From NCBI RefSeq assembly GCF_014084045.1, contig NZ_CP043732.1:1798001-1862000 (forward strand): a stretch of DNA of 64,000 bases. Reading direction: 5' to 3'. The stretch's first letter is position 1, and each line of letters starts with the position of its first letter. The position numbers were made by a program, and so were the translations under genes. The stretch is from Microbacterium esteraromaticum (GTDB lineage: Bacteria; Actinomycetota; Actinomycetes; Actinomycetales; Microbacteriaceae). The notes beneath the pieces are model-generated. The model saw only the letters and a list, made by a program, of their open reading frames with translations, had not been told where the DNA came from and did not search any database. Shown in pieces: positions 8,501 through 53,300 of the stretch.

Positions 8501-8578
8501 CGCTGTCCTCGCGAGACTTCACTTCCAGCTTGAGACAGCGTGCACGAGTGCAGGTCCCATGCCGGAAGTGAAGTCTCG
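8501..8578. repeat. Palindromic intergenic element, word type A, copy 1
   Basis: A perfect 15-bp inverted repeat, CGAGACTTCACTTCC at 8512-8526 and its complement at 8564-8578, encloses 37 nt. A nested pair, CGCTGTC (8501-8507) and GACAGCG (8534-8540), allows an alternative fold. It lies between the convergent pucR-type and rtcB genes, 6 nt from the rtcB stop. Similar sequences occur at 12781-12851 and 14151-14223. Confidence 0.75.
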
Positions 8579-8584
8579 GGGTGA

Positions 8585-9754
8585 TCAGTCGCCCTTCACG
8601 TTGACGATCTGCCGCAGCGTGTGCCGGATGGTCACGAGATCGGCGGCATCCGCCATCACCTGATCGATCGGCTTGTACGCCTGCGGGATCTCGTCGATGA
8701 AGGCGTCGGTGTCACGGAACTCGATTCCGACCATCGCCTCACGCAGCTGCTCGCGCGTGAACGTGCGCCGCGCCGCCGACCGCGAGTACTCCCGCCCGGC
8801 GCCGTGCGGCGACGAGTTCAGCGACAGCGGATTGCCGAGTCCCTCCACGACGTACGAGGCGGTTCCCATCGAGCCTGGGATGAGCCCGGCGCGACCGGCG
8901 TCTGCCTGGATCGCCCCCTTCCGCGACACCCAGACCTGCTTGCCGAAGTGCTTCTCGGACTCGGTGAAGTTGTGGTGGCAGTTGATCCGCTCCTGCTCCT
9001 GCACCTCCGCCCCCGCGAACTCCGACACCTGGCGCACCACGCGGTCCATCATCTCCTCCCGGTTCAGCAGGGCGAAGTGCTGTGCCCACCTCAGCTCGCG
9101 GATGTACCGGGTGAACTCTGGCGTGCCCTCGACCAGGTAGGCCAGGTCGGGGTCGGGGAGATCGATCCAGTACTGCTTCACGATTCGCTGCGCGACCGCG
9201 ATGTGGTGCATGGCGATCTTGTTGCCCACGCCGCGCGACCCGGAGTGCAGGAACAGCCAGACCCGATCCAGCTCGTCGAGGGAGACCTCGATGAAGTGGT
9301 TCCCTGAGCCGAGGGTGCCCAGCTGCAGCATCCAGTTGCCGGTGTACGAAGCCGGATCGAACCCGTTCTTCTCGGCGAGGCTCTGCAGGTCGGCGATCCG
9401 CGGCTCGGCGGTGGCGACGACCTTGCGGTTGTACCGCCCCGCTGACAGCGGGATCGCGCGCTCGATCGCCTCGCGCAGCGGCGCGAGATCGCGCTCGGTG
9501 AACTGTGAGGCGGTGAACTGCGTGCGAACGGCGATCATGCCGCAGCCGATGTCGACGCCCACGGCGGCGGGGATGATCGCGCCGAGCGTCGGGATGACCG
9601 AGCCGACCGTCGCCCCCTTGCCGAGGTGCGCATCCGGCATGAGCGCCAGGTGCGGGTGGATGAACGGAAGCGTCGCAGTGGTGCGCGCCTGATCGAGTGT
9701 CTTCTGATCGATCAACGATGCCCACGACAGCAGCCGTGCGGAGAGCCTCTCCAT
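8585..9754 (-). CDS. rtcB: RtcB-family RNA ligase
   Basis: The 389-residue protein is a GTP- and Mn2+-dependent 3'-phosphate RNA ligase, cytosolic, joining 2',3'-cyclic phosphate or 3'-phosphate ends to 5'-OH ends in RNA repair. Visible motifs are PDAHLGKG (residues 40-47, metal ligand region), GVDIGCGM with Cys71, GSGNHF (150-154), LHSGSRG (169-175), INCHHNF (258-263) and NSSPHGAGR, where His317 matches the guanylated histidine. No rtcA or rtcR is nearby. The start is supported by the purine-rich GAAGGAAAGG upstream. The message begins at a consensus promoter around 10000 and passes through a 31-codon ORF and two hairpins before reaching rtcB, suggesting post-initiation control. Confidence 0.92.
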   Translation of the reverse strand: MERLSARLLSWASLIDQKTLDQARTTATLPFIHPHLALMPDAHLGKGATVGSVIPTLGAIIPAAVGVDIGCGMIAVRTQFTASQFTERDLAPLREAIERAIPLSAGRYNRKVVATAEPRIADLQSLAEKNGFDPASYTGNWMLQLGTLGSGNHFIEVSLDELDRVWLFLHSGSRGVGNKIAMHHIAVAQRIVKQYWIDLPDPDLAYLVEGTPEFTRYIRELRWAQHFALLNREEMMDRVVRQVSEFAGAEVQEQERINCHHNFTESEKHFGKQVWVSRKGAIQADAGRAGLIPGSMGTASYVVEGLGNPLSLNSSPHGAGREYSRSAARRTFTREQLREAMVGIEFRDTDAFIDEIPQAYKPIDQVMADAADLVTIRHTLRQIVNVKGD

Positions 9755-9808
9755 GATTCCTTTCCTTCTGTGATGTGCCGGGCACAGGTCACGGAGGATT
9801 CATGAAAG

Positions 9809-9836
9809 ATGCCCCGGACCTGACGGTGCGGGGCAT
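9809..9836 (-). terminator. Hairpin between leader ORF and rtcB (attenuator candidate)
   Basis: ATGCCCCGGACC (9809-9820) pairs with GGTGCGGGGCAT (9825-9836) in a 12-position stem with one G/G mismatch and a 4-nt loop. On the rtcB transcript it is followed by CTTTCATG. It sits between the leader ORF stop and the rtcB ribosome-binding site, where it could terminate or block translation. Confidence 0.5.
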
Positions 9837-9853
9837 GCGAGCAGCGGATGCTG

Positions 9854-9949
9854 TCACACGGCGCGCGCCGGAGGGTACGACTCGTCGCGGTCGTTGCGCT
9901 TCGGTTCGAAGGCAAGGACCGTGGGAAGGTTGCGCTGCTGCGCGGTCAT
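9854..9949 (-). CDS. 31-residue leader ORF upstream of rtcB
   Basis: A short ORF (MTAQQRNLPTVLAFEPKRN, then DRDESYPPARAV) starts at ATG 9949 and stops at TGA 9854. A good Shine-Dalgarno sequence, GAGGAG, lies 7-8 nt upstream. It is the first reading frame on the rtcB transcript, about 40 nt from the predicted start site. The peptide is charged and proline-containing, with no membrane segment or signal peptide and no amino-acid run typical of classical attenuation. I do not recognise it. It may be a leader peptide whose translation controls rtcB, or an independent small protein. Promoter, ribosome-binding site and ORF together make translation plausible. Confidence 0.5.
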   Translation of the reverse strand: MTAQQRNLPTVLAFEPKRNDRDESYPPARAV

Positions 9950-9970
9950 CCGTCGTCTCCTCGGCTGGCT

Positions 9971-9990
9971 GCTGTGCCGCTCGGCACAGC
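9971..9990 (-). promoter_or_regulatory. 5'-terminal hairpin of the rtcB transcript
   Basis: GCTGTGCC and GGCACAGC form a perfect 8-bp stem with a 4-nt loop. The predicted transcription start (about 9990) is at the edge of the stem, so the RNA would begin with this hairpin. Such 5' structures can protect RNA ends or regulate; the role here is unknown. Confidence 0.5.
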
Positions 9991-9996
9991 CGTGTC

Positions 9997-10025
9997 ATTA
10001 TAGGGGGGCTGGGCTCGGCCGTCAA
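9997..10025 (-). promoter_or_regulatory. Consensus sigma-70 promoter for leader ORF-rtcB
   Basis: On the minus strand TTGACG (10020-10025) is followed after 17 nt by TATAAT (9997-10002). A perfect -10 with a near-perfect -35 is unusual in this GC-rich DNA and implies strong initiation, which fits downstream control by the hairpins. Confidence 0.8.
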
Positions 10026-10049
10026 GAGCGGCATTCCCAATCGTCGCCG

Positions 10050-10637
10050 TCAGCGGATGCCGTTGGCGATCAGTTGCGCGTCAAGCGCCGCGAGGGCGTC
10101 AGATGCCGAAAGCCCGGCGCTCAGCACGGTCAGACCGAGACCCTCAGCCGTGGCGAGCAGAGCGGTCGCGCGTGCCGACGCGCTCTGTGCATCGGCATCC
10201 GCCGCGTGTTCGAGCAGTTCGGTGAACCAGTGCCGGAGCTGCGCCTCGCCCTGTGCCAGCGAGCGGGAGTGGTCGTCGCGGATGGCCGCGTAGGCCTGGA
10301 ACTGCAGGCTGATCCTTCCGTCGTGCAGCTCGTCGTCGGTCTGCGGGATGAAATTGAGCAGGACGGCGCGAACAACGGCAGCGGGGGACGGCGCCTCGCC
10401 GAGGGCGGCCACCGATGCGCCGATGCGCTGCTCGTAACGTGTGGCGGCGGTCTGCATCGCGAACGCCATCAGTTCGTCCTTCGACGCGAAGTAGTGCTGC
10501 ACCATGCCCGCGGTCACGTTCGCCTCCGCGGCGACGTTGCGCAGACTGACCCCGCCGACCCCGTCGCGAACGATCACGCGGAACAGGGCGTCGGCGATCA
10601 GCGCGCGCCGCTCGGCGGGATCGACGATCTTCGGCAT
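10050..10637 (-). CDS. TetR-family transcriptional regulator
   Basis: The 195-residue protein starts with a typical TetR DNA-binding domain: RRALIADALFRVIVRDG followed by VSLRNVAAEANVTAGMVQHY, where the recognition helix ends in VQHYFASKDEL (about residues 48-58). The C-terminal two-thirds is a helical ligand/dimer domain. It is divergent from the membrane-protein gene at 10723 and most likely represses it and itself through the CGTAT-N9-ATACG palindrome at 10662-10680. Its own start has AAGCAT 6 nt upstream and TTGTCA a further 17 nt upstream, so it may be leaderless. The ligand is unknown. Confidence 0.88.
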   Translation of the reverse strand: MPKIVDPAERRALIADALFRVIVRDGVGGVSLRNVAAEANVTAGMVQHYFASKDELMAFAMQTAATRYEQRIGASVAALGEAPSPAAVVRAVLLNFIPQTDDELHDGRISLQFQAYAAIRDDHSRSLAQGEAQLRHWFTELLEHAADADAQSASARATALLATAEGLGLTVLSAGLSASDALAALDAQLIANGIR

Positions 10638-10643
10638 GCCGCC

Positions 10644-10695
10644 ATGCTTTCACATTGCGATCGTATTGACAACGCATACGGGTGACGGATACATT
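10644..10695. promoter_or_regulatory. Divergent promoters and TetR operator candidate
   Basis: Rightward: TTGACA (10666-10671), 18-nt spacer, TACATT (10690-10695). Leftward: TTGTCA, 17 nt, AAGCAT (10644-10649) 6 nt before the TetR ATG. CGTAT (10662-10666) and ATACG (10676-10680) form an inverted repeat overlapping both -35 regions, an ideal autorepressor site. Confidence 0.6.
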
Positions 10696-10722
10696 ACGAG
10701 TGCAACGTGAAAGGAGCGGCCG

Positions 10723-11394
10723 ATGACGCAGACCGCAGCCGCCGCGACCGCCGAGCCGCGCCGAATCGCCCCGCAGCTGCACGGCGCCGAGCGCCTGCGC
10801 CACGGCATCCGTCGCGCCACCGCCATGGAGGCCGCCGGCTGGCGCAGCATCGGCCGCGCGCTCCTGGGTCGACCTCGTGTCCCGCACGGAGCGACTGGAT
10901 TCAGCTACGACCGTCCGGTCCGCACGATCCTGATCATCTTCCTCGTGCTCTCGGCGATCGAGATCCCCGTGATCGACCTGCTCGTGCACGGCATCGCGTG
11001 GCTGCGGTGGCCCCTGCTCGCCCTCGGCGTCTGGGGAGTGCTCACCATGCTCGGCATGCTGCTGAGCCACCTCACCCGCCCGCACTCCGTCGGCCCTGAC
11101 GGCATCCGAGTGCGGCACGGAGGAGAGGTCGACATCGACCTGCCCTGGGAGATGATCGCCTCGGTGCAGCGGCGCCGTCACTCCCTCAGCGGCGCTCCAC
11201 AGCTCAGCCTCACCGGCGCCGGCGACGAGCAGGTGCTGAATCAGGTGATCCAGGACCACTCCGAGATCGAGATCGCCCTCGAGCGGCCCACTCTGCTGCC
11301 GCTGCCGCAGGGCGACGTCACCGTCGCCGCGGTGCGGATCTCGGTGGACGACCCGGCGGCCTTCCTCGACGCCGTGCGCACGCACATCCCCTGA
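10723..11394 (+). CDS. Two-TM membrane protein of unknown function
   Basis: The 223-residue protein has an Ala/Arg-rich N-terminal tail of about 65 residues, two hydrophobic segments (TILIIFLVLSAIEIPVIDLL, about 67-86, and a second around 95-115), then a soluble C-terminal domain of about 100 residues with GPDGIRVRHGGEVDIDLPW, which looks like a small PH-like beta domain. AAAGGAG lies 6-7 nt before ATG 10723. It is divergent from and probably controlled by the TetR gene. I do not recognise a named family; membrane-anchored PH-like domains are common in actinobacteria but without defined roles. Confidence 0.75.
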   Translation: MTQTAAAATAEPRRIAPQLHGAERLRHGIRRATAMEAAGWRSIGRALLGRPRVPHGATGFSYDRPVRTILIIFLVLSAIEIPVIDLLVHGIAWLRWPLLALGVWGVLTMLGMLLSHLTRPHSVGPDGIRVRHGGEVDIDLPWEMIASVQRRRHSLSGAPQLSLTGAGDEQVLNQVIQDHSEIEIALERPTLLPLPQGDVTVAAVRISVDDPAAFLDAVRTHIP

Positions 11395-11411
11395 GCGCCG
11401 GGCGCGCGTGA

Positions 11412-11816
11412 TCAGTCGGTGCGCGGTGGGTTGTGCATGATCTCGAGCCGGATGCCGTTGGCATCCTCGACGAACGACGCGTAGTACCGGTCGCTGAACC
11501 GCGGGTAGTCCTTGGGCTCGCGCACCTCGCTCCATCCTGCGGCCACGGCGATGTCGTGGATCCGGTCGACCTCGTCCCTGGAGTCGACCGCGAAGGCGAG
11601 GTGCTGCCAGCCGACGCGACCGTGCACGTGCGGTCCTGTGCCCTTCTCCCGAGCGGTGTACAGCAGGATCTCAGGCTCGTCGGTGCGCCGCCAGTACGCG
11701 TGATCCTCCCCGTCGTGCGCCCTCGTGTAGCCGAGCGCCTCGAAGACGGGATTGAACTGGGTCGATGCCGAGGGCACGTCATCGACGGTGATGCCGAGGT
11801 GATCGAAAGTCGCCAT
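11412..11816 (-). CDS. VOC/glyoxalase-like protein, copy 1
   Basis: The 134-residue protein has a vicinal-oxygen-chelate fold: DHLGITVDDV at the start, HVHGRVGWQHLAF in the middle and ASFVEDANGIRLEIMHNPP at the end. The His and Glu positions fit the metal-site pattern of the superfamily, so it may be an isomerase, dioxygenase or resistance protein. ATG 11816 is chosen because the alignment with the paralogue at 13672-14079 starts here; a longer open frame adds an unrelated Arg-rich stretch. CAGACT lies 6 nt upstream of the ATG. It diverges from a RidA gene. Substrate unknown. Confidence 0.8.
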   Translation of the reverse strand: MATFDHLGITVDDVPSASTQFNPVFEALGYTRAHDGEDHAYWRRTDEPEILLYTAREKGTGPHVHGRVGWQHLAFAVDSRDEVDRIHDIAVAAGWSEVREPKDYPRFSDRYYASFVEDANGIRLEIMHNPPRTD

Positions 11817-11822
11817 CCTCAC

Positions 11823-11862
11823 AGTCTGGCCGATCCTCGCAGTCGCGTCGTCACGGCAGACT
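11823..11862. promoter_or_regulatory. Divergent leaderless-type promoters (CAGACT boxes)
   Basis: CAGACT on the minus strand (11823-11828) is 6 nt from ATG 11816, and CAGACT on the plus strand (11857-11862) is 6 nt from ATG 11869. The two boxes form an inverted pair. The match to TANNNT is partial. Confidence 0.35.
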
Positions 11863-11868
11863 GGGACG

Positions 11869-12273
11869 ATGACCGCCGTCTCCCTCATCCGCGCGCCCGA
11901 GCTGTCCGACGCCGCCCAGTACGCATACGCCGCCACCGCGCCCGCAGGCGCCCGGCTCATCTTCCTCGCGGGGGCGTGTCCGCTGAACCCCGACGGCACG
12001 ACGGCTGCGGTGGGCGACTACGCGGGCCAGGCGGCCGCGTGCATCGACACCCTGCGCGGCGCGCTCGCCGCGGCGGGCGCAGGGCTCACCGACGTGATCA
12101 GCACCCGAGTGCTCGTCGCCTCGTCGTCGCAGGCAGACCTCGTCTCGGCCTGGAATGTCGTCCGCGACGCGTTCGGAGCACATGACGTGCCGAGCACGCT
12201 GATGGGAGTCACCGTGCTCGGATACGACGATCAGCTGGTCGAGATCGAGGCCGTCGCCGCGGTCGTCGACTGA
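11869..12273 (+). CDS. RidA-family protein (enamine/imine deaminase-like)
   Basis: The 134-residue protein has the YjgF/YER057c/UK114 fold. Recognisable segments are RLIFLAGACPLNPDGT, a central DTLRGALAAAGAGLTDVIST and the C-terminal TVLGYDDQLVEIEAVA. Canonical RidA proteins hydrolyse reactive enamine/imine intermediates from PLP enzymes; the key C-terminal Arg of the RidA subfamily (in the usual CxAR-like motif) is not evident here, so it belongs to another RidA subfamily of uncertain substrate. It is transcribed alone, with no clear Shine-Dalgarno sequence, and diverges from a VOC gene. Confidence 0.78.
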   Translation: MTAVSLIRAPELSDAAQYAYAATAPAGARLIFLAGACPLNPDGTTAAVGDYAGQAAACIDTLRGALAAAGAGLTDVISTRVLVASSSQADLVSAWNVVRDAFGAHDVPSTLMGVTVLGYDDQLVEIEAVAAVVD

Positions 12274-12280
12274 GACCCGA

Positions 12281-12688
12281 TCAGGTGTCGATCGACACCA
12301 TCCAGGCGACGCCGAACCGGTCGACGAGCATTCCGAAGTCACCGCCCCAGGGCGCGGGCGCGAGGGGAATCGTCGCCGTGCCGCCGTCGAGCAGGCCGTC
12401 CCAGACCGCACGCAGGCGGTCGGCCTCGGCGCCGCCGATCGAGATCGAGACGCCCTGGGGTGCCTGATACTCCATGCTCGACGGGGTGTCCGACGCCATC
12501 AGCACCATGCCGTCGTCGGTGGTGAGCGAGCCGTGCATGACGAGCTCGCTCTCGCTCGGGTCGTAGCCCATCTCGGGCATCGAGCCGAAGGTCATGATCT
12601 GCAGGTCGCCGCCGAGCACCTCGTGGTAGCGCTCGAGGGCCTCGCGTGCGTTGTCGCGGAACGAGATGTACGGGTTCAGGATGGGCAT
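12281..12688 (-). CDS. PhnB-like VOC protein
   Basis: The 135-residue protein matches the PhnB/3-demethylubiquinone-methyltransferase-like branch of the VOC superfamily: NPYISFRDNAREALERYHEV at the N-terminus, GGDLQIMTFGSMPEMG, the MASDTP loop, and the C-terminal WGGDFGMLVDRFGVAWMVS. Proteins of this group are small homodimeric enzymes or binding proteins with poorly known substrates. AAAGGTG precedes ATG 12688. It converges with the RidA gene (7 nt between stops) and is followed upstream by a type A palindromic element at 12781. Confidence 0.82.
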   Translation of the reverse strand: MPILNPYISFRDNAREALERYHEVLGGDLQIMTFGSMPEMGYDPSESELVMHGSLTTDDGMVLMASDTPSSMEYQAPQGVSISIGGAEADRLRAVWDGLLDGGTATIPLAPAPWGGDFGMLVDRFGVAWMVSIDT

Positions 12689-12780
12689 GGTTCACCTTTC
12701 GAAGGCGGATGCCGGACGCCCCGGCGACGACAAGTATTCGCCGCGCCACCGACATCCGCAACGGCATCCGCTCCCCGCCC

Positions 12781-12851
12781 CGCGAGACGTCACTTCCAGC
12801 ACGACACGGCACCCATTGGGCGCTGTCTCGCGCTGGAACAGAAGTCTCGCG
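12781..12851. repeat. Palindromic intergenic element, word type A, copy 2
   Basis: Left arm CGCGAGACGTCACTTCCAG (from 12781) and a second word CACGACACGGC face the inverted counterparts GCTGTCTCGCG and CTGGAACAGAAGTCTCGCG (to 12851). The arms pair imperfectly. It lies 14 nt from the stop of the minus-strand hydrolase gene. Confidence 0.7.
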
Positions 12852-12865
12852 AGTAGGAGCGGCGC

Positions 12866-13669
12866 TCAGCCGTGAGCGCCGAGAACGCGCAGGATCTCGG
12901 GCCAGGCGCGCTCGCCGAGCTCGGCGTCGGCGGCGGCCGTGCCGCCACGCTCCATGTGCACGCCGCCGCTCGCCGGCTCCTCGCCAGGCAGCAGCAGCCG
13001 GTGCCCGGCATCCGGATGCCCGATCACCGTCGTCATCAGCCCGGCCGGCCTCCGCGCCGCGACGATCTCCCGCGCGAACAGATCCGACGGCCACACCTGA
13101 TCGTCCCCGCCGACGATCAGCAGCACCTCGCCCCCGATCCGCTCGACGGCGATCCGGGCGGCCGATGCCCGCTCCGCGAAGTGCTGGAGGCTCGAGGCGT
13201 ACAGCTCGCGGAACGCCGGCGGATCGGCATCCGGGATCCAGCCGTCCATGAACGGAACGAAGGGCACCGGCTCGCCTGCGAGCGTCCAGTGCGACGACCA
13301 GGCGCCGTCGTGCGCGCCGGCCCAGACGACCGATGTCGGAGCGACCGCGATGACCGCATCGACAGGGCTGACCGTCGCGGTCAGCAGCGCGGCCTCCGCG
13401 CCGAACGACGTGCCGAACACGACGACCCTGTCGCACTCCCGCCGCAGCCGATCGAGCTGCTCGGCGAACAGCTCGATCGGCACCTCATGGGGCGCGGGCC
13501 GCTGACCCTCGCCGCCGAACCAGCGCATCGCGCGCACCCGCGCGCCGTGCGCTGCGAGCAGCTCGGCGCGCGCGGTCTCGAGGCGTCCGCTCGAACCCGC
13601 GAGCAGCAGCACTCCCGTGCCGCTCGGCTCGGCGGGATGCACGTCGAAGCGGTCTCGTTCGGCCAGCAT
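12866..13669 (-). CDS. Alpha/beta hydrolase (BAAT/acyl-CoA thioesterase-like)
   Basis: The 267-residue protein has an alpha/beta-hydrolase fold. GVLLLAGSSG is the first beta strand and oxyanion region; VVFGTSFGAEAALL contains a GxSxG nucleophile elbow (Ser near residue 92); GGDDQVWPSDLF carries the acid; and GHPDAGHRLLLPGEEP carries the catalytic His. The spacing and the GGDDQVWPS motif resemble the bile-acid-CoA:amino-acid N-acyltransferase / acyl-CoA thioesterase C-terminal family (BAAT_C). ATG 13669 lies 2 nt after the stop of the VOC gene upstream, so they form a two-gene operon. Substrate unknown. Confidence 0.8.
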   Translation of the reverse strand: MLAERDRFDVHPAEPSGTGVLLLAGSSGRLETARAELLAAHGARVRAMRWFGGEGQRPAPHEVPIELFAEQLDRLRRECDRVVVFGTSFGAEAALLTATVSPVDAVIAVAPTSVVWAGAHDGAWSSHWTLAGEPVPFVPFMDGWIPDADPPAFRELYASSLQHFAERASAARIAVERIGGEVLLIVGGDDQVWPSDLFAREIVAARRPAGLMTTVIGHPDAGHRLLLPGEEPASGGVHMERGGTAAADAELGERAWPEILRVLGAHG

Positions 13670-14150: not shown

Positions 14151-14223
14151 CCGCGAGACTTGCGTTCCAGCACGAGACTTGCCGTCTGAGCGTCGGTTTC
14201 ATGATGGAACGTACGTCTCGCGG
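14151..14223. repeat. Palindromic intergenic element, word type A, copy 3
   Basis: Left words CCGCGAGACTTGCGTTCCAG and CACGAGACTT (from 14151) are matched by inverted words ending in GGAACGTACGTCTCGCGG (to 14223). It is adjacent to the 3' end of the siderophore-interacting-protein gene, 11 nt from its stop. Confidence 0.7.
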
Positions 14224-14234: not shown

Positions 14235-15002
14235 TCAGTGCGGGGCGTGGTACTCGGCCTCGCCGCGCTTCCAGTAGCCCTTCACCACGGCGTTCGCCGC
14301 ATCGACGCCCCAGCGGGCGAGCAGTGCGCGGCCGGGCTTGACGATCGACTGCTCTGCAGCGATGAACACGAAGGGGTCGGAGCCGACGGCATCCGCCTCG
14401 CTCAGAGCCTCGACGAACGCGATCAGGGCCGAGCCCGCCGGGCTGGCGCCCCGGTGCAGCCACTCGACCTCGACCGGCGCGCCGATCTCGACCCGGTCGG
14501 CCTCGGTCGCCACCTCGACCACGATGCGGGCCGGCGCGCCTGCAGGGATCATCGCCGCGAAGCGGCGGATGGCCGGGATCGCGGTCTCGTCACCCACGAG
14601 CAGCCACGATCCCGGCTCGCCGGTCAGCACCGCCGAACCGCGCGGCCCGCCGACCCCGACGAACGAGCCGAGCGGAGCGGATGCGGCCCACGGCGCACCC
14701 ACGCCCTCATCGCCGTGCACGGCGAACTCGACGTCGAGCCAGTTGTCCCCCCAAGCCAGCGGCGTGTACTCGCGGCTGGGTGACGCCCGCAGCTCGTCGA
14801 CCGAGTCGGTCGGGCCTGCTGCGAAGAACAGGCGCATGTGGTCATCCGCACCGAGAGAGCTGAACCCCGCGAGGTCGGCACCCGCCAGGCGCACGCGCAC
14901 GTAGTTCGGGGCCAGCCACACCCGCTCCGCGAGAGTCGCGGAGCGGAAGCGCAGATCGAGGCCCTGTCGTTCGATCGAGAAACCGGATTTCACATCGCTC
15001 AT
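14235..15002 (-). CDS. Siderophore-interacting protein (FAD ferric-siderophore reductase)
   Basis: The 255-residue protein belongs to the ViuB/SIP family of cytosolic flavoproteins that reduce Fe(III)-siderophores to release iron. PSREYTPLAW (about residues 74-83) corresponds to the RxYT flavin-binding motif; LLVGDETAIPAIRRF (about 131-145) is the nucleotide-site motif; FIAAEQSIVKPGRALL and a C-terminal KGYWKRGEAEYH are family signatures. ATG 15002 overlaps the iron box, and TAGCCT lies 6 nt upstream, so the message may be leaderless. It is divergent from the siderophore ABC operon and shares its iron-dependent control. Confidence 0.9.
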   Translation of the reverse strand: MSDVKSGFSIERQGLDLRFRSATLAERVWLAPNYVRVRLAGADLAGFSSLGADDHMRLFFAAGPTDSVDELRASPSREYTPLAWGDNWLDVEFAVHGDEGVGAPWAASAPLGSFVGVGGPRGSAVLTGEPGSWLLVGDETAIPAIRRFAAMIPAGAPARIVVEVATEADRVEIGAPVEVEWLHRGASPAGSALIAFVEALSEADAVGSDPFVFIAAEQSIVKPGRALLARWGVDAANAVVKGYWKRGEAEYHAPH

Positions 15003-18976: not shown

Positions 18977-19055
18977 ACGGATGTCGGCGGGAAACACGGA
19001 TGTCGGCGGGAATCGCGTGTTCCTGCCGACATCTGTGATCTGCGCCGACATCCGT
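18977..19055. repeat. Palindromic intergenic element, word type B, copy 1
   Basis: Word ACGGATGTCGGCGGGAA occurs at 18977-18993 and again at 18996-19012. Inverted words follow: TTCCTGCCGACATCTGT at 19020-19036 and TGCGCCGACATCCGT at 19041-19055. The two-direct plus two-inverted plan can fold into one long or two shorter hairpins. It lies between convergent genes. Confidence 0.8.
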
Positions 19056-20088: not shown

Positions 20089-20172
20089 CGCCGACACCCC
20101 CACCTTGCGCCGACACCCCTATCTGCTTCCGTCCACACCTGGGGGTGTCGACGGGAAGTGGGGGTCTCGGCG
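20089..20172. repeat. Palindromic intergenic element, word type B, copy 2
   Basis: CGCCGACACCCCCA (20089-20102) and CGCCGACACCCCT (20108-20120) are followed by the inverted words TGGGGGTGTCGACGGG (20140-20155) and TGGGGGTCTCGGCG (20159-20172). The plan equals that of 18977-19055, with a related core CCGACA(T/C)CC. It is 7 nt from the stop of the winged-helix regulator. Confidence 0.8.
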
Positions 20173-20179: not shown

Positions 20180-20869
20180 TCAGAAGCGGTCGGGCGAGGG
20201 GGTGCCGTGGCCGTAGCGGATCGACACGTCTGCGTGGCGGTCGAAGCGGTAGCCGACGCCGCGCACGGTGCGCACGATGTCCTCGTGGCGACCGAGCTTG
20301 GCCCGGAGGCGCCGCACGTGCACGTCGATGGTGCGCTCGCCGGGGGCATCCTCATCCGACGACGCCTGCCACAGCGCCGAGACCAGCTCGCTGCGCTCGA
20401 TCGTGCGGCCCTCGCGCAGCACCAGGTACTGCAGCAGCTCGAACTCCTTGTAGGTGAACGAGGCGGACTCGCCGTCGAGCAGCACGCGCTTGCGGGAGAT
20501 GTCGACGACGACGCCGGACTCCTCGTCCTTCTCCTCCTCGACCGCCGCGTTGGCGCGGGCGATGGCACCGGGCTCGTGAAGCGCGAGGCGCACGACATCG
20601 AGGTCGCGGCCGCCCGCGGACTGCGGGGCGAGGGCGACGGTCGCGTGCGTCTCGGCGGTCGGGGCGAGCTCCGCGAGCGTGCGGCGCAGCGCGTCGACGA
20701 GCACGGGGAGGCTCACGCCCGCTGACGCCGCCTTGATCTCGTCGATGCCGACGTAGAGGGCGAAGCCGCGCGGCGAGCGGACGGAGGGGAGGTCTGCGGC
20801 GGCGTCGGCCTGCGAGATGACGCGAACGGGGGCGGTGACGGGACGCTCGACGAGTGCGGTGTTCGACAT
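20180..20869 (-). CDS. Orphan winged-helix regulator (OmpR/PhoB-type DNA-binding domain)
   Basis: The 229-residue protein has a C-terminal OmpR/PhoB-type winged helix (about residues 118-215): FTYKEFELLQYLVLREGRTI, then RTIDVHVRRLRAKLG and VRTVRGVGYRF. The N-terminal ~115 residues lack the receiver-domain pattern and its phospho-accepting Asp; they contain FALYVGIDEIKAASAGVSLP and look like a small alpha/beta domain of unknown function. No sensor kinase is nearby. It therefore probably senses something other than phosphorylation. ATG 20869 has AAGGATC upstream. A consensus-like promoter at 21137-21166 predicts a leader of about 260 nt, long enough for regulation. Confidence 0.82.
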   Translation of the reverse strand: MSNTALVERPVTAPVRVISQADAAADLPSVRSPRGFALYVGIDEIKAASAGVSLPVLVDALRRTLAELAPTAETHATVALAPQSAGGRDLDVVRLALHEPGAIARANAAVEEEKDEESGVVVDISRKRVLLDGESASFTYKEFELLQYLVLREGRTIERSELVSALWQASSDEDAPGERTIDVHVRRLRAKLGRHEDIVRTVRGVGYRFDRHADVSIRYGHGTPSPDRF

Positions 20870-43283: not shown

Positions 43284-43290
43284 GGTGCCG

Positions 43291-43296
43291 AGTCTA
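43291..43296 (-). promoter_or_regulatory. Leaderless-type -10 box (TAGACT) of CDF gene
   Basis: TAGACT-CGGCACC-ATG on the minus strand, 7 nt spacing, no Shine-Dalgarno sequence. Confidence 0.4.
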
Positions 43297-43369
43297 CGAC
43301 CCCGCCGTGCCCACTTCATGGGGCGCGGCGGGGTCGCAGAGGGCGCGTCGGTCGTCCGGCGTCGCGAAC

Positions 43370-44520
43370 CTAGCGGACGAGTCGGCTCTGCTCGGCGTCG
43401 TCGGCGAATCTTCCGAGCTCGGCGGTCTGCAGGTAGAAGCGATCGGGTCGCATGCCCGCCAGCTCTGCGACGTCCTCTCCATCGAGCACCTCGCGAGCGA
43501 CGACGTCCGCCCAGATCGGGCCCCACCCGATCCCTCCGTGCGAGAGCACGTGGTACAGGCCCGACACCCAGGGCAGCCCCCGACGACGGGCCCGCCCGGC
43601 GGGATGGGCCGGATTCCGACACGCGTCGCCGAGACGCCGACACCGTCGAGCGAGGGAATGGTCTTCGCCACATCTGCGATGATGCGCTCGGCCGACCAGC
43701 CGTTCGCCCCGTGCCTGCTCGTCATCGACTCCCCGCGCCAGTGGATCGCGAGCCCGCCGCCCGGATGCGGACGGGAGAGCCAGGTCGGCGAGTTGAGTAC
43801 GGCAGAAGGCGCCAGAGCCGGATCGACCGGGTCCGTGTAGATCATCAGCCCAGGCACGATGTCCAGAGGGAGGGCCACACCGGCGAGGGCGGCGATGTGG
43901 CTGCCCCAGCTGCCCGCGGCGTTGATCACCAGATCGGCTTCGATCCGCTCACCGGATGCCGTCACGACACCGGTGATCCGATCGCCGGCGCGCAGGAGAT
44001 CGGCGACGGCGGTCTGCTCGCGCACCGTTCCGCCCAGAGCCTCGAGCCGGCCGATCAGCCGGTCGATCAGCGCAGGGGCGTCGACCCAGCCGCTCTCGGG
44101 CTCGAAGACGAACTCGGTGTCGTCGGCGATGCGCAGCCCGTGCATCCGCTCGCGTGCGGCGGCGGCATCCCACACCTCGAGCTCGACGCCCCGTCGGATG
44201 CAGGTCGCGGCGAGCTCGCGGAAGGAGGCTCGCTCATCGGGAGCCCCCCAGGCGAGCGTCCCGCACCAGTGGATCCAGTCGCCGCCGAGCTCGTCGGCGA
44301 GCTCCGCGAACCGGGGATGAACGGTGGGACGGAGCGCCGCCCGCCCTGCATCCTCCGTCCACGCCCGCTGCGGAAACGAGGAGAGCCAGGCGAACGAGGA
44401 GCGACTCGTGCCGTGCGCCCGTGCGCCCGCCTCGAGCAGCACGACCGACGCTCCCCGCTCCTGCAGCCGGTACGCGATGTGCGCTCCGACGGAGCCGGCT
44501 CCGATGACGACGATCTTCAT
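43370..44520 (-). pseudogene. D-amino-acid-oxidase-like FAD enzyme, frameshifted near 3' end
   Basis: The gene starts at ATG 44520 with the FAD motif VVIGAGSVGAHIAY and continues as a normal DAO-superfamily protein through GSWGSHIAALAGV and RVGIRPIPPGGPVVGG. At a run of five C bases on the plus strand (43577-43581) the frame is lost, and the conserved C-terminus SGLYHVLSHGGIGWGPIWAD appears in another frame, ending at 43370. One missing base in the G-run would restore a 383-residue protein. As written, the reading frame instead runs to 43294 with a Cys/Ser/Arg-rich tail. The cause may be mutation, slippage-based phase variation or a sequencing error. It is the last gene of the peptide-ABC operon. 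Confidence 0.8.
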
Positions 44521-44522
44521 GC

Positions 44523-48478: not shown

Positions 48479-49375
48479 TCACACCGTGGTCTTGAGCCGA
48501 GGGTCGAGCTGGGCGCGAAGCCAGTCGCCGATGAACAGGATGCAGAGCACCGTGAGGGTGATCGCCAGGCCAGGGAACGTGCTCACCCACCACGCGGTGG
48601 CGAGGTAGTCGCGTCCGCCCGTCAGCATCAGGCCCCACGACACATCCGGCGGCTGGATGCCCAGCCCGAGGAAGCTCAGGGATGACTCAGTGACGATCAG
48701 CGCCGCAACGCTGAGGGTGGAGAGCACGACGAACGTGGGGACGACGTTCACGAGGATGTGCCGCGTGGTGATGAACAGGTTCCCCGAGCCGAAGGTTCGT
48801 GCGGCCTTCACGAACAGGCGCTCGCGGATCTCGAGCACCTCGTTGCGCACCTGGCGGGCGTAGACCACCCAGGTCGTCAGACCGAGCACGATGATCAGGG
48901 TGGTCACGCCCGGGTTGAGGATCGCGAGCACGGCGAGGATCAGCAGGATCGTCGGGATCGAGAGGAAGGCGTCGACGATCCGCATCAGCACGGCGTCGAC
49001 CCAGCCGCCGAAGTAGCCGGCCACGATGCCGACCGTCACGCCGATGACGCCCGCCACGGTGACGCCGAGCACCCCGACGAGGATCGAGATCCGCGAGCCG
49101 ACGATCAGCCGCGAGAGGATGTCGCGCCCGAGGTTGTCCGTGCCGAGCACGTGGACGGCCGGATCGGTGGTGAAGGGAGGCAGCAGCGCCTTCGTGACGT
49201 CGATCTGAGCAGGGTCATGAGGCGTCACCCACGGCCCGATCACCGCCAGGAGGCAGATGGCGGCCAGGATCGCCATCGACACGCGCGCGGGCCAGGTGGC
49301 CGAGCGCAGCAGGGAGGCGCGCTTCTTCGGTTGACGGATCGCATGGGTCGACTGCGGTGCATCGGTGCCGGTCAC
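48479..49375 (-). CDS. Peptide-type ABC transporter permease (OppC/DppC-like)
   Basis: The 298-residue membrane protein is the DppC-type permease. HVLGTDNLGRDILSRLIVGS is the characteristic cytoplasmic segment, and the permease motif EAA-like part is seen in ERLFVKAARTFGSGNLFITT. GTG 49375 is preferred because it overlaps the upstream stop (GTGA); the open frame extending to 49420 adds a Pro/Arg-rich tail not typical of the family. It forms the channel with the DppB-type subunit. Confidence 0.87.
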   Translation of the reverse strand: MTGTDAPQSTHAIRQPKKRASLLRSATWPARVSMAILAAICLLAVIGPWVTPHDPAQIDVTKALLPPFTTDPAVHVLGTDNLGRDILSRLIVGSRISILVGVLGVTVAGVIGVTVGIVAGYFGGWVDAVLMRIVDAFLSIPTILLILAVLAILNPGVTTLIIVLGLTTWVVYARQVRNEVLEIRERLFVKAARTFGSGNLFITTRHILVNVVPTFVVLSTLSVAALIVTESSLSFLGLGIQPPDVSWGLMLTGGRDYLATAWWVSTFPGLAITLTVLCILFIGDWLRAQLDPRLKTTV

Positions 49376-50286
49376 AGCTGGATCCTCCGGTCTGAGAGGC
49401 GGAAGATGACATCGCCGCACAGGTTCACGACGATGATCATCAGGGCTACGACGAATACGCCGGCCTGGACGACCGGCAGGTCCTTGTTGGTGACGGCCTG
49501 GATGAGCAGCATCCCCAGCCCCGGCCAGGCGAAGACGGTCTCCACGATGATCGCGCCGCCGATGAGGCCCGCGAACTGCAGGAGCACGATGCTGGTGACC
49601 GGAACGAACGCGTTGCGCAGCGCGTGCACGCGAAGCACACGCGACTCGGTGATGCCCTTGCCGCGCGCGGTGCGCACGTAGTCGTTCCCGAGCTCCTCGA
49701 TCACGCTGGATCTCACCAGCATCATGATCTCGGCGGCGACGCCTGTGGCCAGGGCGACCGCCGGAAGGACCAGGTGGGCGATCGAGCCGGAGCCCGAGAC
49801 GGGAAGCAGGCGCAGTCCGACGGAGAAGACCAGGATCAGCATGATGCCGAGCCAGAAGTTGGGCATCGCCTTCGCCAGCACCGAGATGCCGAGCAGCGAG
49901 TTGTCCAGTGCGCTTCCTCGGCGCACCGCGGCGATGACGCCTGCGGGGATCGCGAAGGCCACGGCCAGCGCGATTCCGCTGATCGCGAGCGTGAGGGTGA
50001 CGGGCAGGCGCTGCAGCACGAGCACCAGCGCCGGCTGACCGTAGCGGTAGGAATCGCCGAAATCACCCTGGACGACATGCCAGAGGTAGTCGACGTACTG
50101 AACGACTATGGGCCGGTCGAGGCCGAGCGCGTGGCGCGTGGCGGCCACCTGCTGGGGCGTGGCCTCCTCGCCGAGCATGCTCGCAACCGGATCACCCGCG
50201 ACGTTCACCAGCACGAAGACGAACGTGAGGATGATCAGCAGCACAGGGATCGCTTCGAGCACCCGTCGCAGCAGATAGTTCAGCAC
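49372..50286 (-). CDS. Peptide-type ABC transporter permease (OppB/DppB-like)
   Basis: The 304-residue permease is the first gene of the operon. It starts at GTG 50286, with GGAGG 4 nt upstream. MLNYLLRRVLEAIPVLLIIL is the first helix and GDFGDSYRYGQPALVLVLQR the family loop; GNDYVRTARGKGITESRVL is the EAA motif (about residues 199-217). The promoter TTGACG-N17-TATGTT (50358-50386) drives it. It diverges from the XRE-cupin regulator that probably controls it. Confidence 0.9.
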   Translation of the reverse strand: MLNYLLRRVLEAIPVLLIILTFVFVLVNVAGDPVASMLGEEATPQQVAATRHALGLDRPIVVQYVDYLWHVVQGDFGDSYRYGQPALVLVLQRLPVTLTLAISGIALAVAFAIPAGVIAAVRRGSALDNSLLGISVLAKAMPNFWLGIMLILVFSVGLRLLPVSGSGSIAHLVLPAVALATGVAAEIMMLVRSSVIEELGNDYVRTARGKGITESRVLRVHALRNAFVPVTSIVLLQFAGLIGGAIIVETVFAWPGLGMLLIQAVTNKDLPVVQAGVFVVALMIIVVNLCGDVIFRLSDRRIQL

Positions 50287-50357
50287 TCGGCCTCCTGGCG
50301 TTGGGATGGGGTGTGGCGAGCGGCGACGTTCGCGCCGCCTTCGCGAGATTGGTCACG

Positions 50358-50386
50358 AACATAGCGACGATGTCCGTGTGCGTCAA
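50358..50386 (-). promoter_or_regulatory. Sigma-70 promoter of the peptide-ABC operon
   Basis: On the minus strand TTGACG (50381-50386), 17-nt spacer, TATGTT (50358-50363). Start site about 65 nt before the permease GTG. To the right, ATATGC at 50461-50466 and 50485-50490, each followed by a GTAC, may be regulator sites. Confidence 0.7.
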
Positions 50387-50531
50387 TACTGCACAAGTAA
50401 TGTGGAGTGTGCAGGCGACTTCTCCGGGTTTTTCGGTACTCTGTCGCAGTTGTGTGCAGAATATGCGTACGCTCCGTGAGCGGCATATGCTGTGCGCGTA
50501 CATCGTTGGGAACGAACCCTTCGGAGGGGAT

Positions 50532-51137
50532 ATGGAGAACGGCGCCGATGCGACGCTGGTGGCTGTCGGCAGCCGGCTGCGCGACATCCGCAAGGAGGCG
50601 GGGCTCAGCCTGCGCGATCTGGCGACACGGTCTGGGATGTCGGCCAGCTTCCTCTCGCTCGTGGAGCGAGGGGAGTGCTCACTGTCGCTGACTTCGCTGT
50701 TCGGCATCGCCCGAGCGCTGGAGATCGATCCCGCAGACGTCGTCGGGGCGGCATCGAATGCGGCTCCGGCTCAGGCCGAGTTCGGGATCTGGCGCGCCGG
50801 CGATCGTCCGAAGCCCAAGAGCGTCGTGGGCGAGCGGGAGTACTTCGCCTTCTCGGCCGCCGTCGCGCAGTCCGGCCTGCGGCCGATCTTCCTCCGGATC
50901 CACCCCACGAAGGTCGCCCTGCCGAGGCTGAGCCACGAGGGCGAAGAGGTCGCCGTCGTCCTATCCGGCACATTGACGTTCGAGCTGCGCGACGAGATCG
51001 TCGAGCTCGGCGCGGGCGACGCCATACATCTCAGCTCGCAGACACCCCATACCATCCTCAACCGCACAGACGGCATCGTCGAGGCGATCTGGCTGTCGGC
51101 AGACGGCGACGCCTCGGCGCATCACCCGTCGTACTGA
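50532..51137 (+). CDS. XRE-family regulator with C-terminal cupin domain
   Basis: The 201-residue regulator has an N-terminal helix-turn-helix (VGSRLRDIRKEAGLSLRDLA then RSGMSASFLSLVERGECSLS, about residues 12-50) and a C-terminal cupin sensor (HEGEEVAVVLSGTLTFELRD and GDAIHLSSQTPHTILNR). Such proteins (SutR/PuuR-like) sense small amines or amino acids and repress transport or catabolic genes. GGAGGGG precedes ATG 50532. It diverges from the peptide-ABC operon and precedes an FAD oxidase, indicating control of both. Confidence 0.9.
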   Translation: MENGADATLVAVGSRLRDIRKEAGLSLRDLATRSGMSASFLSLVERGECSLSLTSLFGIARALEIDPADVVGAASNAAPAQAEFGIWRAGDRPKPKSVVGEREYFAFSAAVAQSGLRPIFLRIHPTKVALPRLSHEGEEVAVVLSGTLTFELRDEIVELGAGDAIHLSSQTPHTILNRTDGIVEAIWLSADGDASAHHPSY

Positions 51138-51174
51138 TCGCTGCACAGCCACCTCACCAGCAAGGAGAACTGCC

Positions 51175-52290
51175 ATGGCCTCGAGCCCCACTGCCATCGT
51201 GATCGGAACCGGCGTCGCCGGCGCTTCGACGGGTTTCGCTCTCGCGAGGCGCGGCGTCGACGTCACCATGATCGAATCGGGGTTCGAGGCGCCGGCGACG
51301 GCCGCCGGCGCCGGGATCATCCAGCCCTGGAGCTCGGCGGTCGAGGGGGGGTACTACCGCTATTACGCGGCGGGAGCCGACTTCTACGACGAGCTGATCC
51401 CGCGCCTGGCCGAAGTGGGCATCGACGACATCGGCTATCGCCAGTCGGGGGCTCTCGTCGTCAACCGCGAGGCGAGCCTTCTCGACGAGGTCGAGGAGCG
51501 CGTGCACAGCCGGATCGGCGCCGCACGTCTCGCGGGCGAGGTGTCGCGGGTGTCCGAGGCGCGTGCGAAGGAGCTCTTCCCTCCGCTCGGAGACGGCTTC
51601 GAGGGCATCCACATCTCGGGCGGCGCGCGCGTCGACGGGCGGGTGCTGCGCCGTGGGCTGCTGGACGCGATCGAGCGGCTCGGCGGAAGGGTCGTCGAGG
51701 GAACGGCGACGCTCGAGCCCACCGCCGACGGACTCTGGGCGGCGGTGGTCGACGGTCGCCAGATCGTCGCTGACAGCATCGTCCTCGCCGCCGGCGCTTG
51801 GACCAACCGCCTGCTGGAGCCTCTGGGCAAGCGGGTCGCGATCGAGCCGCAGCGCGGTCAGATCACCCACCTCCACGTTGGTTCGGTCGATACCCGCTTC
51901 TGGCCGTCGGTGCACCCGATGTCGGGTCACTACATGCTCGCGTTCGACGACTCGCGAGTGGTGGTCGGCGCGACCAGGGAGCCGGGCACCGGCTTCGACC
52001 CGCGGGTGACGGCGGCCGGGCAGCGAGAGGTGCTCGAGAACGCGCTCGCCGTCGCACCCGGCCTCGCCGATGCGACGCTGATCGAGACCCGCGTCGGCCT
52101 TCGCCCGATGCCCGAGGGCACGCTGCCCGTCGTGGGGGCGATCGACACGATGCCGGGTGTCTACCTCAACGCCGGCTTCGGCGCGGGCGGACTGACGATG
52201 GGCCCGATCGTCGGAGATCAGCTCGCCGCGATCATGCTCGGGCAGGCGGATGCTCCTTCCGAGGGGATCCTCGCGCCCGTGCGACTCTGA
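51175..52290 (+). CDS. DAO-superfamily FAD oxidase (DadA-like)
   Basis: The 371-residue protein has the Rossmann motif IVIGTGVAGASTGFALARRG, a central RRGLLDAIERLGGRV, VLAAGAWTNRLLEPLG and a C-terminal TRVGLRPMPEGTLPVVGAID, the conserved FAD-binding end of D-amino-acid dehydrogenase / glycine-oxidase-type enzymes. It oxidises an amino acid or N-alkyl amine, passing electrons to O2 or a quinone. AAGGAGAACT lies before ATG 51175. It is co-transcribed with the XRE-cupin gene (37-nt gap) and complements the frameshifted oxidase at 43370. Confidence 0.86.
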   Translation: MASSPTAIVIGTGVAGASTGFALARRGVDVTMIESGFEAPATAAGAGIIQPWSSAVEGGYYRYYAAGADFYDELIPRLAEVGIDDIGYRQSGALVVNREASLLDEVEERVHSRIGAARLAGEVSRVSEARAKELFPPLGDGFEGIHISGGARVDGRVLRRGLLDAIERLGGRVVEGTATLEPTADGLWAAVVDGRQIVADSIVLAAGAWTNRLLEPLGKRVAIEPQRGQITHLHVGSVDTRFWPSVHPMSGHYMLAFDDSRVVVGATREPGTGFDPRVTAAGQREVLENALAVAPGLADATLIETRVGLRPMPEGTLPVVGAIDTMPGVYLNAGFGAGGLTMGPIVGDQLAAIMLGQADAPSEGILAPVRL

Positions 52291-52336
52291 TCGCAAGAGC
52301 TCGTCGCTGCCGGCCGACTCGGCTGAGTGGGCCTCG

Positions 52337-52342
52337 TAGGAT
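52337..52342 (+). promoter_or_regulatory. Leaderless-type -10 box (TAGGAT) of proC
   Basis: TAGGAT-GGGCGGC-ATG; 7 nt spacing, no separate ribosome-binding site. Confidence 0.4.
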
Positions 52343-52349
52343 GGGCGGC

Positions 52350-53189
52350 ATGGTCGATTCCCTCCCCTCACTCGCATTCCTCGGAGCAGGTTCCATGGGA
52401 GGCGCGATCCTGCAGGGGGTCGTCGCCTCGGGCGTCGCGGTCGACGGCGGCATCATCGCCACCAACAGGACCCGCGAGAAGGCGGATGCCCTCGCGTCCC
52501 TCCCCGGAGTCGCCAGCATCGCCCTGGAGGAGAATCCCGACGGCAACGCCGAGGCGACCGCCGCGGCACGGATCATCCTCGTCGGCGTGAAGCCCGCCAT
52601 GGTGCCCGACCTGCTGCGCGAGATCGCCCCGTCGCTGCGCGACGACGCGATCGTCGTGAGCCTCGCGGCAGGCGTCACGCTGGCGACCTTCACCGACGCG
52701 CTCGGCGATCGCGCGCACACGGTGCGCTCGATGCCGAACACCCCGGCCACGGTCGGGCGTGCCGTGACCGGCATCGCGGCAGGTCCCGCGGCCACCGAAG
52801 ACGACATCGCACTCGTGCGCGCCCTGTTCGAGCAGGTCGGCGCGGTCATCGAAGTGCCCGAGTCGCAGATTGACGCGCTGTCGACGGTCTCCGGTTCCGG
52901 TCCCGCGTACGTCTTCCTGCTGATCGAGAAGCTGACGGAGGCTGCGCGGGGGATGGGATTCTCGGATGCCGATGCCCGACTCATGTCGGAGCAGACGTTC
53001 ATCGGCGCGGCCGCCCTGCTGGCGGCATCCGGAGAGGATCCGGCCGAGCTGCGCCGCCGCGTGACCAGCCCCAAGGGCACGACGGAGCGGGCAGTCGCGG
53101 TGCTGCAGGCCGCCGGGCTCGACGGCGTCTTCGCCGACGCGACCGCCGCAGCCCTCGCCCGTGCGAAGGAGCTCGCTGCCGGCGCCTGA
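52350..53189 (+). CDS. proC: Pyrroline-5-carboxylate reductase
   Basis: The 279-residue cytosolic enzyme makes proline from pyrroline-5-carboxylate using NADPH. LAFLGAGSMGGAI is the NADP Rossmann motif (about residues 8-20); VRSMPNTPATVGRAVTG is the central signature; SGSGPAYVFLLIEKLTEAAR and ASGEDPAELRRRVTSPKGTT are the C-terminal P5CR signature. Length is normal. ATG 52350 is used; an ATG 9 nt upstream would be too close to AGG. The preceding cluster is unrelated. A type C palindromic element follows. Confidence 0.95.
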   Translation: MVDSLPSLAFLGAGSMGGAILQGVVASGVAVDGGIIATNRTREKADALASLPGVASIALEENPDGNAEATAAARIILVGVKPAMVPDLLREIAPSLRDDAIVVSLAAGVTLATFTDALGDRAHTVRSMPNTPATVGRAVTGIAAGPAATEDDIALVRALFEQVGAVIEVPESQIDALSTVSGSGPAYVFLLIEKLTEAARGMGFSDADARLMSEQTFIGAAALLAASGEDPAELRRRVTSPKGTTERAVAVLQAAGLDGVFADATAAALARAKELAAGA

Positions 53190-53222
53190 GTGCGGCTGTC
53201 TGGGGACCCGGGCGCCCGCGAT

Positions 53223-53300
53223 CGAGAACAGGACGGTTGCCCGGGGCAGGACGAATTCCGGGCATCCGGCCTGTTCTGGCGAACGAGCCTGTTCTCAGCG
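53223..53300. repeat. Palindromic intergenic element, word type C
   Basis: Words AGAACAGG (53225-53232) and GGGGCAGG (53243-53250) are followed by inverted CCTGTTCT (53270-53277) and CCTGTTCT (53288-53295). The same two-plus-two plan as the type A and B elements. It lies between convergent proC and the Trk gene. Confidence 0.7.

Follow-up and report, generated by a model that had tools for sequence, protein, structure and literature searches.

Gene-end hairpin repeats in Microbacterium esteraromaticum and their probable tie to AbiEi-Vsr-like nuclease genes

Six intergenic hairpins in the window, the whole 64,000-nt stretch of Microbacterium esteraromaticum DNA that was analysed, are probably solo copies of four hairpin-repeat families, each tied to one paralogous gene for an AbiEi-Vsr-like protein. 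The families appear to spread in a REP/RAYT-like manner with a nuclease; the binding, cutting and copying that this would involve we infer. The six hairpins, in window coordinates, are the following.

8511..8579 (69 nt, no strand assigned): type A solo hairpin, words GAGACTTCACTTCC..GAGAC followed by inverted words; 5 nt to the stop of the minus-strand gene 8585-9754; given as 8501-8578 in the preliminary description
12782..12850 (69 nt, no strand assigned): type A solo hairpin; 15 nt to the stop of the minus-strand gene 12866-13612
14153..14221 (69 nt, no strand assigned): type A solo hairpin; 13 nt to the stop of the minus-strand gene 14235-14921
18977..19055 (79 nt, no strand assigned): type D four-word hairpin, words CGGATGTCGGC, period 19; convergent genes on either side, 37 nt to the minus-strand stop
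20089..20172 (84 nt, no strand assigned): type B four-word hairpin, words CGCCGACACCCC, period 19; 7 nt to the stop of the minus-strand gene 20180-20869
53223..53297 (75 nt, no strand assigned): type C four-word hairpin, words CGAGAACAGGAC, period 18; convergent genes on either side, 30 nt to the minus-strand stop

The preliminary description had placed six such elements here; all are present, and they also recur genome-wide. It had sorted them into three word types. The words do differ, but they make up four families, A (8511, 12782, 14153), D (18977), B (20089) and C (53223), since the hairpins at 18977 and 20089 have separate cognate genes. The plan of two direct words followed by two inverted ones holds overall, except that family A has its second direct word shortened to GAGAC. 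Each of the six does adjoin the 3' end of a minus-strand gene, as had been noted, with the stop of the right-hand gene 5-37 nt away, whereas in a wider sample the neighbour is any stop codon, on either strand. In that sample a stop codon is no more than 60 nt away from 28 of 33 copies (null 15%); one of 33 lies between divergent genes (null 17%).

A strict scan, in which one word had to occur in four exact copies, found a single cluster at k=7, that at 18977 (mean 0.2 and maximum 1 in 20 shuffles), and at k=6 seven clusters, among which 18977 is again the only one of the six (shuffle mean 3.5, maximum 6). For the other five, taken singly, the plan by itself is thus a weak argument, and it is their recurrence elsewhere that proves them. 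GAGACN5TTCCAG with at most one mismatch occurs seven times in the window versus 1.04 expected, a number reached in 0 of 100 shuffles; the exact pattern has 14 occurrences genome-wide and its reversed control none. Each family has a single length (A 69, D 79, B 84 and C 75 nt), with a direct-word period of 18-19 nt. Where both arms were found in an 864 kb sample, the offset between them is constant: 43 nt in 7/7 elements of type A, 53 nt in 5/5 of B, 45 nt in 7/7 of C (two of these with an extra tandem word) and 45 nt in 2/2 of D. Copies cluster locally in the genome. In type A stems, double changes are commoner than in shuffles.

Each of the four families has one gene in its own genome (G000) with own-family hairpins on both flanks, and in all four the product joins a DNA-binding half of AbiEi type to a Vsr-like nuclease half. 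This points to a REP-like system built around a nuclease and not the usual REP transposase. The genes are these.

G000:C1:468008-468916: type A cognate nuclease gene, between two type A hairpins
G000:C1:2731112-2732089: type B cognate nuclease gene, type B hairpins on both sides
near G000:C1:2063979: type C cognate nuclease gene, type C hairpins on both sides
near G000:C1:2028361: type D cognate nuclease gene, type D hairpins on both sides

The arrangement extends well beyond these four. Among homologues with full flanks, 47 of 56 have matched left and right repeats (score of at least 34), compared with 6 of 444 control genes from the genome of the window and 6 of 212 from other genomes; the top scorer in the latter set proved to be a homologue too, with CGGGAGGA hairpins on both sides in G106. 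The remaining 9 of 56 failed this flank test, some of them (such as L215 and L186) with a single hairpin. In four units examined the space between the hairpins is about 1.1 kb, room for one gene. Type A solo hairpins also bracket other genes, e.g., one between 1459334 and 1460495 (LacI-like by eye), so that a flanking pair alone is not peculiar to the nuclease gene. In several species the gene keeps its place, and the hairpins alone therefore look mobile. The pairing of this nuclease type with hairpin repeats is not named in the literature searched.

At E up to 0.1 a PADLOC AbiEi model matches 24 of 25 members (best 7.8e-18, first member 1.6e-11), and Pfam AbiEi_4 matches only 8 of the 25; the fold is that of the AbiEi DNA-binding antitoxins, which 6y8q also supports. 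The nuclease half is of the Vsr/REase type and belongs by fold and sequence to the Vsr-like / DUF559 / MTES_1575 family. A conserved acidic active site is present: all 25 aligned members of the main group have the candidate residues E216, D248 and E259. An exception is found in the type C gene and its relative in G106, which have Q at the candidate active-site E of the other aligned members. D261 and K265 are nearly invariant in A2.

Hairpin number and hairpin words both follow the nuclease. Across 59 genomes of the genus, type B word-pair matches number 39 (in G000 itself), 27, 17, 11 and 10 in the five genomes with the B-locus nuclease, versus 1-4 in four and 0 in 50 of those lacking it; the genomes with at least 10 matches are exactly the five that hold the gene. 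The variant of the word shifts as well. In G212, GAGACCCC accounts for 43 of 54 words and GACACCCC for 3, versus 15 and 59 of 78 in G000, and in each genome the nuclease flanks agree. More generally, words vary by species, yet the two hairpins beside one gene match each other. In the largest syntenic group the within-locus left-right median is 63.5 versus 16 for the same side between species (12/17 loci, p=1.7e-8). Over 42 loci the Mantel rho is 0.32, reached in 0 of 2000 permutations. The pairing of family and gene recurs in the genus and, in a weaker form, in the phylum.

Solo hairpins are variable in both presence and words between relatives 87-90% identical. At the gene end corresponding to 14153..14221 the SN12 hairpin has other words; at the 18977 locus SN12 has a hairpin with TGAGAAACCA words, and G233 keeps the type D words with diverged spacers. 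The SN12 hairpin at the 20089 locus is also of type B. The hairpin at 53223 is missing in G233, where there is a 53-nt gap, and several congeners have none at corresponding gene ends. A prediction was set in advance that eight solo words from G106, G129 and SN12 would flank homologues in the same genomes. The search placed four of the eight: GAGAAACCA (SN12) and TCTCGCGGC (G129) flank a homologue on both sides, GAGAAACCAC (G106) on one side, and for CGCCAGTTC (G129) both homologue flanks carry the near match CGCCACTTC. A fifth, CGGGAGGA, the word of the G106 homologue met among the control genes, came by way of that set. No homologue was matched to the other three, GTGAGACTTGG (G106), CGGGAGGC (G129) and the GCAGGA word of SN12. 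SN12 also has type A solo copies, and no gene with type A words was detected there.

Hairpins that adjoin stop codons, with stable stems and an excess of double changes, are what would be expected of ordinary transcript ends, i.e., terminators or RNA stabilisers that share words by chance and whose link to the nuclease is a by-product. The preliminary description had offered the terminator reading as one of its examples. A run of at least 5 T in the 8 nt beyond either end was found in 0 of 35 elements (at most 4 T), and together with the congeners that have no hairpin at the corresponding gene end this leaves a plain intrinsic (Rho-independent) terminator unsupported by the sequence; termination may be a side effect of the hairpins. 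Ordinary hairpins would also leave unexplained the type B count that tracks the B-locus nuclease over the genus, the word variant that follows the nuclease, and the flanking of most nuclease genes, and we regard them as a highly improbable account. A regulon is a likelier alternative, although still an improbable one. The AbiEi-like protein would then be a DNA- or hairpin-binding regulator and the 3'-end words its operators, or regulated terminators or insulators, matched by selection on regulation, while the nuclease half would act on bound DNA or RNA or be vestigial. AbiEi antitoxins bind inverted repeats, the copies keep close to stop codons and away from divergent gene pairs, and co-variation of word and protein is equally expected of a regulator. 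However, the sites vary in presence and words between relatives that are 87-90% identical, the single length per family and the local clustering are more like copied units, and the candidate active site is invariant in the main group.

The matches to the PADLOC AbiEi models and the Vsr/REase type of the nuclease half could also suggest defence or addiction, in which the nuclease would be a toxin-like or phage-defence protein, held inactive by the scattered hairpins as decoys, sensors or protected self-sites. In the four units, however, the hairpins leave space for one gene only, and protective copies should not change words at single loci or be missing in relatives; such a role seems most doubtful. 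A classical IS-derived MITE is not supported either: of 35 elements examined for target-site duplications, 2 have flanking direct repeats of at least 5 nt (null 3.2%).

To our knowledge, REP systems depend on RAYT transposases. The preliminary description had suggested a diversified REP-like family under selection on structure, with a TnpA_REP partner. The first part is broadly borne out by dispersed, palindromic, intergenic elements with lineage-specific words, a constant plan and the double changes in type A stems; the partner is not, as the Y1 tyrosine transposase profile (PF01797) has 0 matches in G000 and is positive in 5 of 14 control genomes. Like REP/REPIN-RAYT systems, the present families are short dispersed intergenic palindromes in many copies, with several families per genome. 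According to PMC2817692 and PMC8049555, RAYT genes are flanked by two repeat copies, mostly fixed in place and vertically inherited; here too the gene lies between two copies, mostly stays put and is passed on vertically. Unlike RAYT, a Y1 tyrosine transposase, the enzyme is an AbiEi and Vsr-like nuclease fusion. The elements also differ: they are 69-84 nt long and combine two direct words with two inverted ones, and GTAG or CGTC stands at or near an end in 3 of 35, a figure given without a null. CGTC-tagged REPs are likewise palindromic repeats without a RAYT partner, and PMC3733652 describes them as having no dedicated transposase; their sequences and hosts are other than these, and here a partner gene was found. 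In contrast to Vsr-like homing endonucleases, e.g., I-Bth0305I, the protein has an AbiEi-type DNA-reading half, its gene sits between hairpins at a fixed locus, and the putative spreading unit is the gene-end hairpin. It differs from the AbiEi antitoxin of AbiE type IV toxin-antitoxin systems in bearing a nuclease domain, and in having hairpin repeats at its flanks and solo copies elsewhere. AbiE systems have an adjacent AbiEii nucleotidyltransferase toxin gene, and the interval from hairpin to hairpin in the four units examined fits a single gene.

For the preferred reading, nuclease-associated repeats, the following course can be proposed. The AbiEi winged-helix half would read the word, and the nuclease would cut at or beside hairpins formed by the word, or at other gene-end hairpins. 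Repair of the break would copy a matching hairpin into the cut site; in this way the family would spread to gene ends, sites that would tolerate insertions, and its words would be homogenised. Should the specificity of the protein drift, all copies would follow. Overall this would be REP/RAYT-like with an unrelated enzyme, or homing-like with the hairpin as the copied unit. Whether it amounts to a new class of self-spreading repeat we put at even chances. In such a class an AbiEi-Vsr nuclease would read a word of 8-12 nt with its winged-helix half and copy four-word hairpins into gene ends by cut and repair, and word and protein would turn over together at a locus inherited vertically, the whole repeat population being rewritten, gene-side hairpins included.

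If this is true, a second, unrelated enzyme class has its own repeats, and the combination of an enzyme with dispersed hairpins evolved more than once. Many natural protein-word pairs would be predicted across actinobacteria. A possible role would also be suggested for a large set of proteins that currently go under the names hypothetical or 'AbiEi family antitoxin domain-containing', 1064 of the 8000 candidates scored being at E up to 0.001. The coupled change of word and protein at a single locus makes the families a natural data set on how a winged-helix domain reads DNA, and the in-step rewriting of a genomic sequence population becomes testable with them.

The six elements of the preliminary description are present in the window, and all are long hairpins. 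Each is built of short sequences (words) on a four-word plan, two direct and two inverted, and their words place them in four families:

8511, 12782 and 14153: type A hairpins
18977: type D hairpin
20089: type B hairpin
53223: type C hairpin

In 864 kb of the 3.37 Mb, single-contig M. esteraromaticum genome (the window, at bases 1,798,001-1,862,000, and 40 even stretches), the spacing between arms is constant within each family (A, 43 nt in 7/7; B, 53 in 5/5; C, 45 in 7/7; D, 45 in 2/2). Direct words have a period of 19 nt in A, B and D and 18 nt in C, so that element length is fixed and the spacers are variable. The type A stem, with 88.7% of cells paired, is maintained via compensatory changes; double changes number 21, compared with 11.3 for shuffles and no more than 8 for slid controls. 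Two type C elements (L023:17469-17579 and L028:11627-11719) have the 18-nt word in a third tandem copy, which suggests growth of word number by slippage.

All 35 palindromes scoring at least 18 in this sample are intergenic (intergenic DNA is 16%), many of them being ordinary short hairpins outside families A-D. Elements of families A-D also number 35, and 33 have called genes on either side. A stop codon lies within 60 nt of 28/33 (random placement, 15%), and gaps between divergent genes hold 1/33 (random placement, 17%). Genes were called by our own codon-position scorer, so individual borders may be off, and the nuclease genes were missed by it. The 1.2 kb at window 43284-44522 without a gene call, overlapped by a 522-aa minus-strand frame, is probably another miss. 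Type A copies also occur as pairs 0.6-1.9 kb apart (G000:C1):

467847/468981
724099/725963
747590/748212
1459334/1460495
1810782/1812153

Four of the five pairs surround non-nuclease genes, one of which is LacI-like by eye. Local copying and carriage of the enclosed gene are both possible.

The words themselves have a narrow distribution. With at most one mismatch, the type A pattern matches 24 sites in its own genome and no site in two congeners; of 196 other genomes of the host's family, 5 have 1-4 matches. The sole match in the named collection is Actinomycetales bacterium SN12, which is closely related (87% over 5.9 kb). The four-word plan occurs with different words in six 20-kb stretches each of G106, a congener (GTGAGACTTGG, CGAGAAACCAC, CGGGAGGA), and G129, from another genus (CGGGAGGC, CGCCAGTTC, TCTCGCGGCAC).

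No gene had been called in a gap flanked by type A hairpins in M. esteraromaticum or in one flanked by type B hairpins in SN12. The two gaps encode proteins (344 and 326 aa, respectively) that are homologous and in which an AbiEi-type DNA-binding half is fused to a Vsr-like nuclease half. When the M. esteraromaticum genome was searched with the protein from SN12, four homologues were obtained; two hairpins of one family enclose each of them, and the four families differ: B, TCGCCCCCGTT, A and alternating CACCGGCGTTTCCC. A wider profile added one gene enclosed by a pair of type D hairpins and another by a pair of type C hairpins, so each of the window's four families has its gene in this genome. 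Two additional weak homologues are less clear-cut: L215 has a hairpin on the upstream side only and L217 a short inverted match at both flanks. The CACCGGCGTTTCCCATCCG family forms alternating, BIME-like arrays with spacings of 31/32/63 nt:

L021:8361-8750, array
L039:16191-16303, array
L042:11998-13226, array
G000:C1:650783-651586, nuclease gene of this family

SN12 retains scattered (solo) type A hairpins (L083, L084). No nuclease gene carrying type A words was found there; the homologue in the type A gene's synteny group has GAGAAACCA words.

Left and right 450-bp flanks were compared at 61 homologue loci in 33 genomes, 56 of them with full flanks. A score of at least 34 was reached by 47/56 homologues versus 6/444 control genes of the M. 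esteraromaticum genome (Fisher p 5e-50) and 6/212 from other genomes (p 2e-36); the highest of the 212 is itself a homologue, between CGGGAGGA hairpins. Hairpins of at least 55 nt stand on both sides at 37/61 loci, and element similarity tracks protein similarity (Mantel rho 0.32, 42 loci, 0/2000 permutations). It was predicted beforehand that eight solo words of G106, G129 and SN12 should flank homologues of the same genome. Four do (one a near match, one on a single side), a fifth was found via the control set, and three were matched to no homologue. In a phylum sample, homologues occur in 69/198 genomes, own genome counted. Repeats that match each other flank 17/27 usable loci versus 0/19 neighbour genes; often they are plain hairpins that lack the four-word plan.

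Single linkage by common neighbouring genes gave groups of 17, 7, 6 and 4 loci. In all four, left and right match better within a locus than the same side does between species: medians are 63.5 versus 16 (p 1.7e-8; 12/17 loci with both-side hairpins), 65 versus 16 (p 6e-4; 5/7), 77 versus 48.5 (p 0.008; 6/6) and 90.5 versus 40.5 (p 0.002; 4/4). At syntenic loci the gene has thus stayed where it was, but the words to its left and right have been rewritten. Some close species pairs have words in common, the top between-species score being 114 in the first group and 118 in the third.

Scattered copies follow the word of their nuclease. Among 59 genomes of the genus, the B word-pair pattern has 39 matches in M. 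esteraromaticum (G000), 27 in G212, 17 in G231, 11 in G233 and 10 in G227, which are exactly the sampled genomes with a nuclease at the B locus. Four others (G203, G219, G228, G239) have 1-4 matches, and the remaining 50 have none. G237 and G200, the only two further genomes with equally strong homologues, have them at a different locus and with different words, and have 0 matches. Among solo and flanking words, GAGACCCC dominates in G212 (43/54, versus 3 GACACCCC) and G227 (12/20, versus 2), and GACACCCC in G000 (59/78), G231 (24/34) and G233 (15/22); counts within nuclease flanks alone go in the same direction.

The main rival is that the hairpin sites form a regulon, which accounts for such word matching. 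It accounts less well for sites being present, absent or changed from one close relative to another. For example, at the 20089 locus type B is retained in SN12 with altered spacers, related words occur in G239 and G212 and AGCAGGCATC words in G202, and 8/20 loci read (L101, L103-L105, L108, L109, L112, L113) have no palindrome scoring at least 11. The equivalent gene end in G215 (L111) carries a 77-nt hairpin-bearing unit in four tandem copies. At 18977, the hairpin of SN12 is 67 nt long and its four words are of the TGAGAAACCA type. SN12 and G233 are mutually closest (89.5% identity; M. esteraromaticum is 87.4% identical to SN12 and 87.1% to G233), yet G233 keeps type D, so that the simplest history is a word swap in the SN12 line. 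G239 has a hairpin with yet different words at the 8585 gene end. The 53223 hairpin is absent from the corresponding locus in G233, and that at 14153 from those in G212, G219 and G239.

The comparisons show that families are paired with genes, that words change in concert, and that one locus can hold different words. We read the system as REP-like: the nuclease would recognise its word and cut DNA, and may thereby drive its own hairpin to be copied into gene ends. The closest known arrangement, as given in parts of two papers (PMC2817692, PMC8049555), is a RAYT (TnpA_REP) gene flanked by two REPs, with scattered REPs elsewhere. The REP-associated transposase that the preliminary description proposed to look for is absent: Y1_Tnp has no match in the M. 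esteraromaticum genome. In contrast to RAYT, the enzyme here is unrelated and not a Y1_Tnp; the likeness lies in the way of working, and by membership the system is not RAYT.

Other hairpin repeats were seen in the comparison genomes. G129 (L058, L062, L066) has a further one, GGTCGAGTAG..GTATCGAGACC and its inverse, with two-word arms of its own. Among 30 hairpins listed in 400 kb of G250 (L270-L289), seven close CCGCGAGACGGGATC..CGCCGAGAC copies and four related ones are perhaps a recently expanded family.
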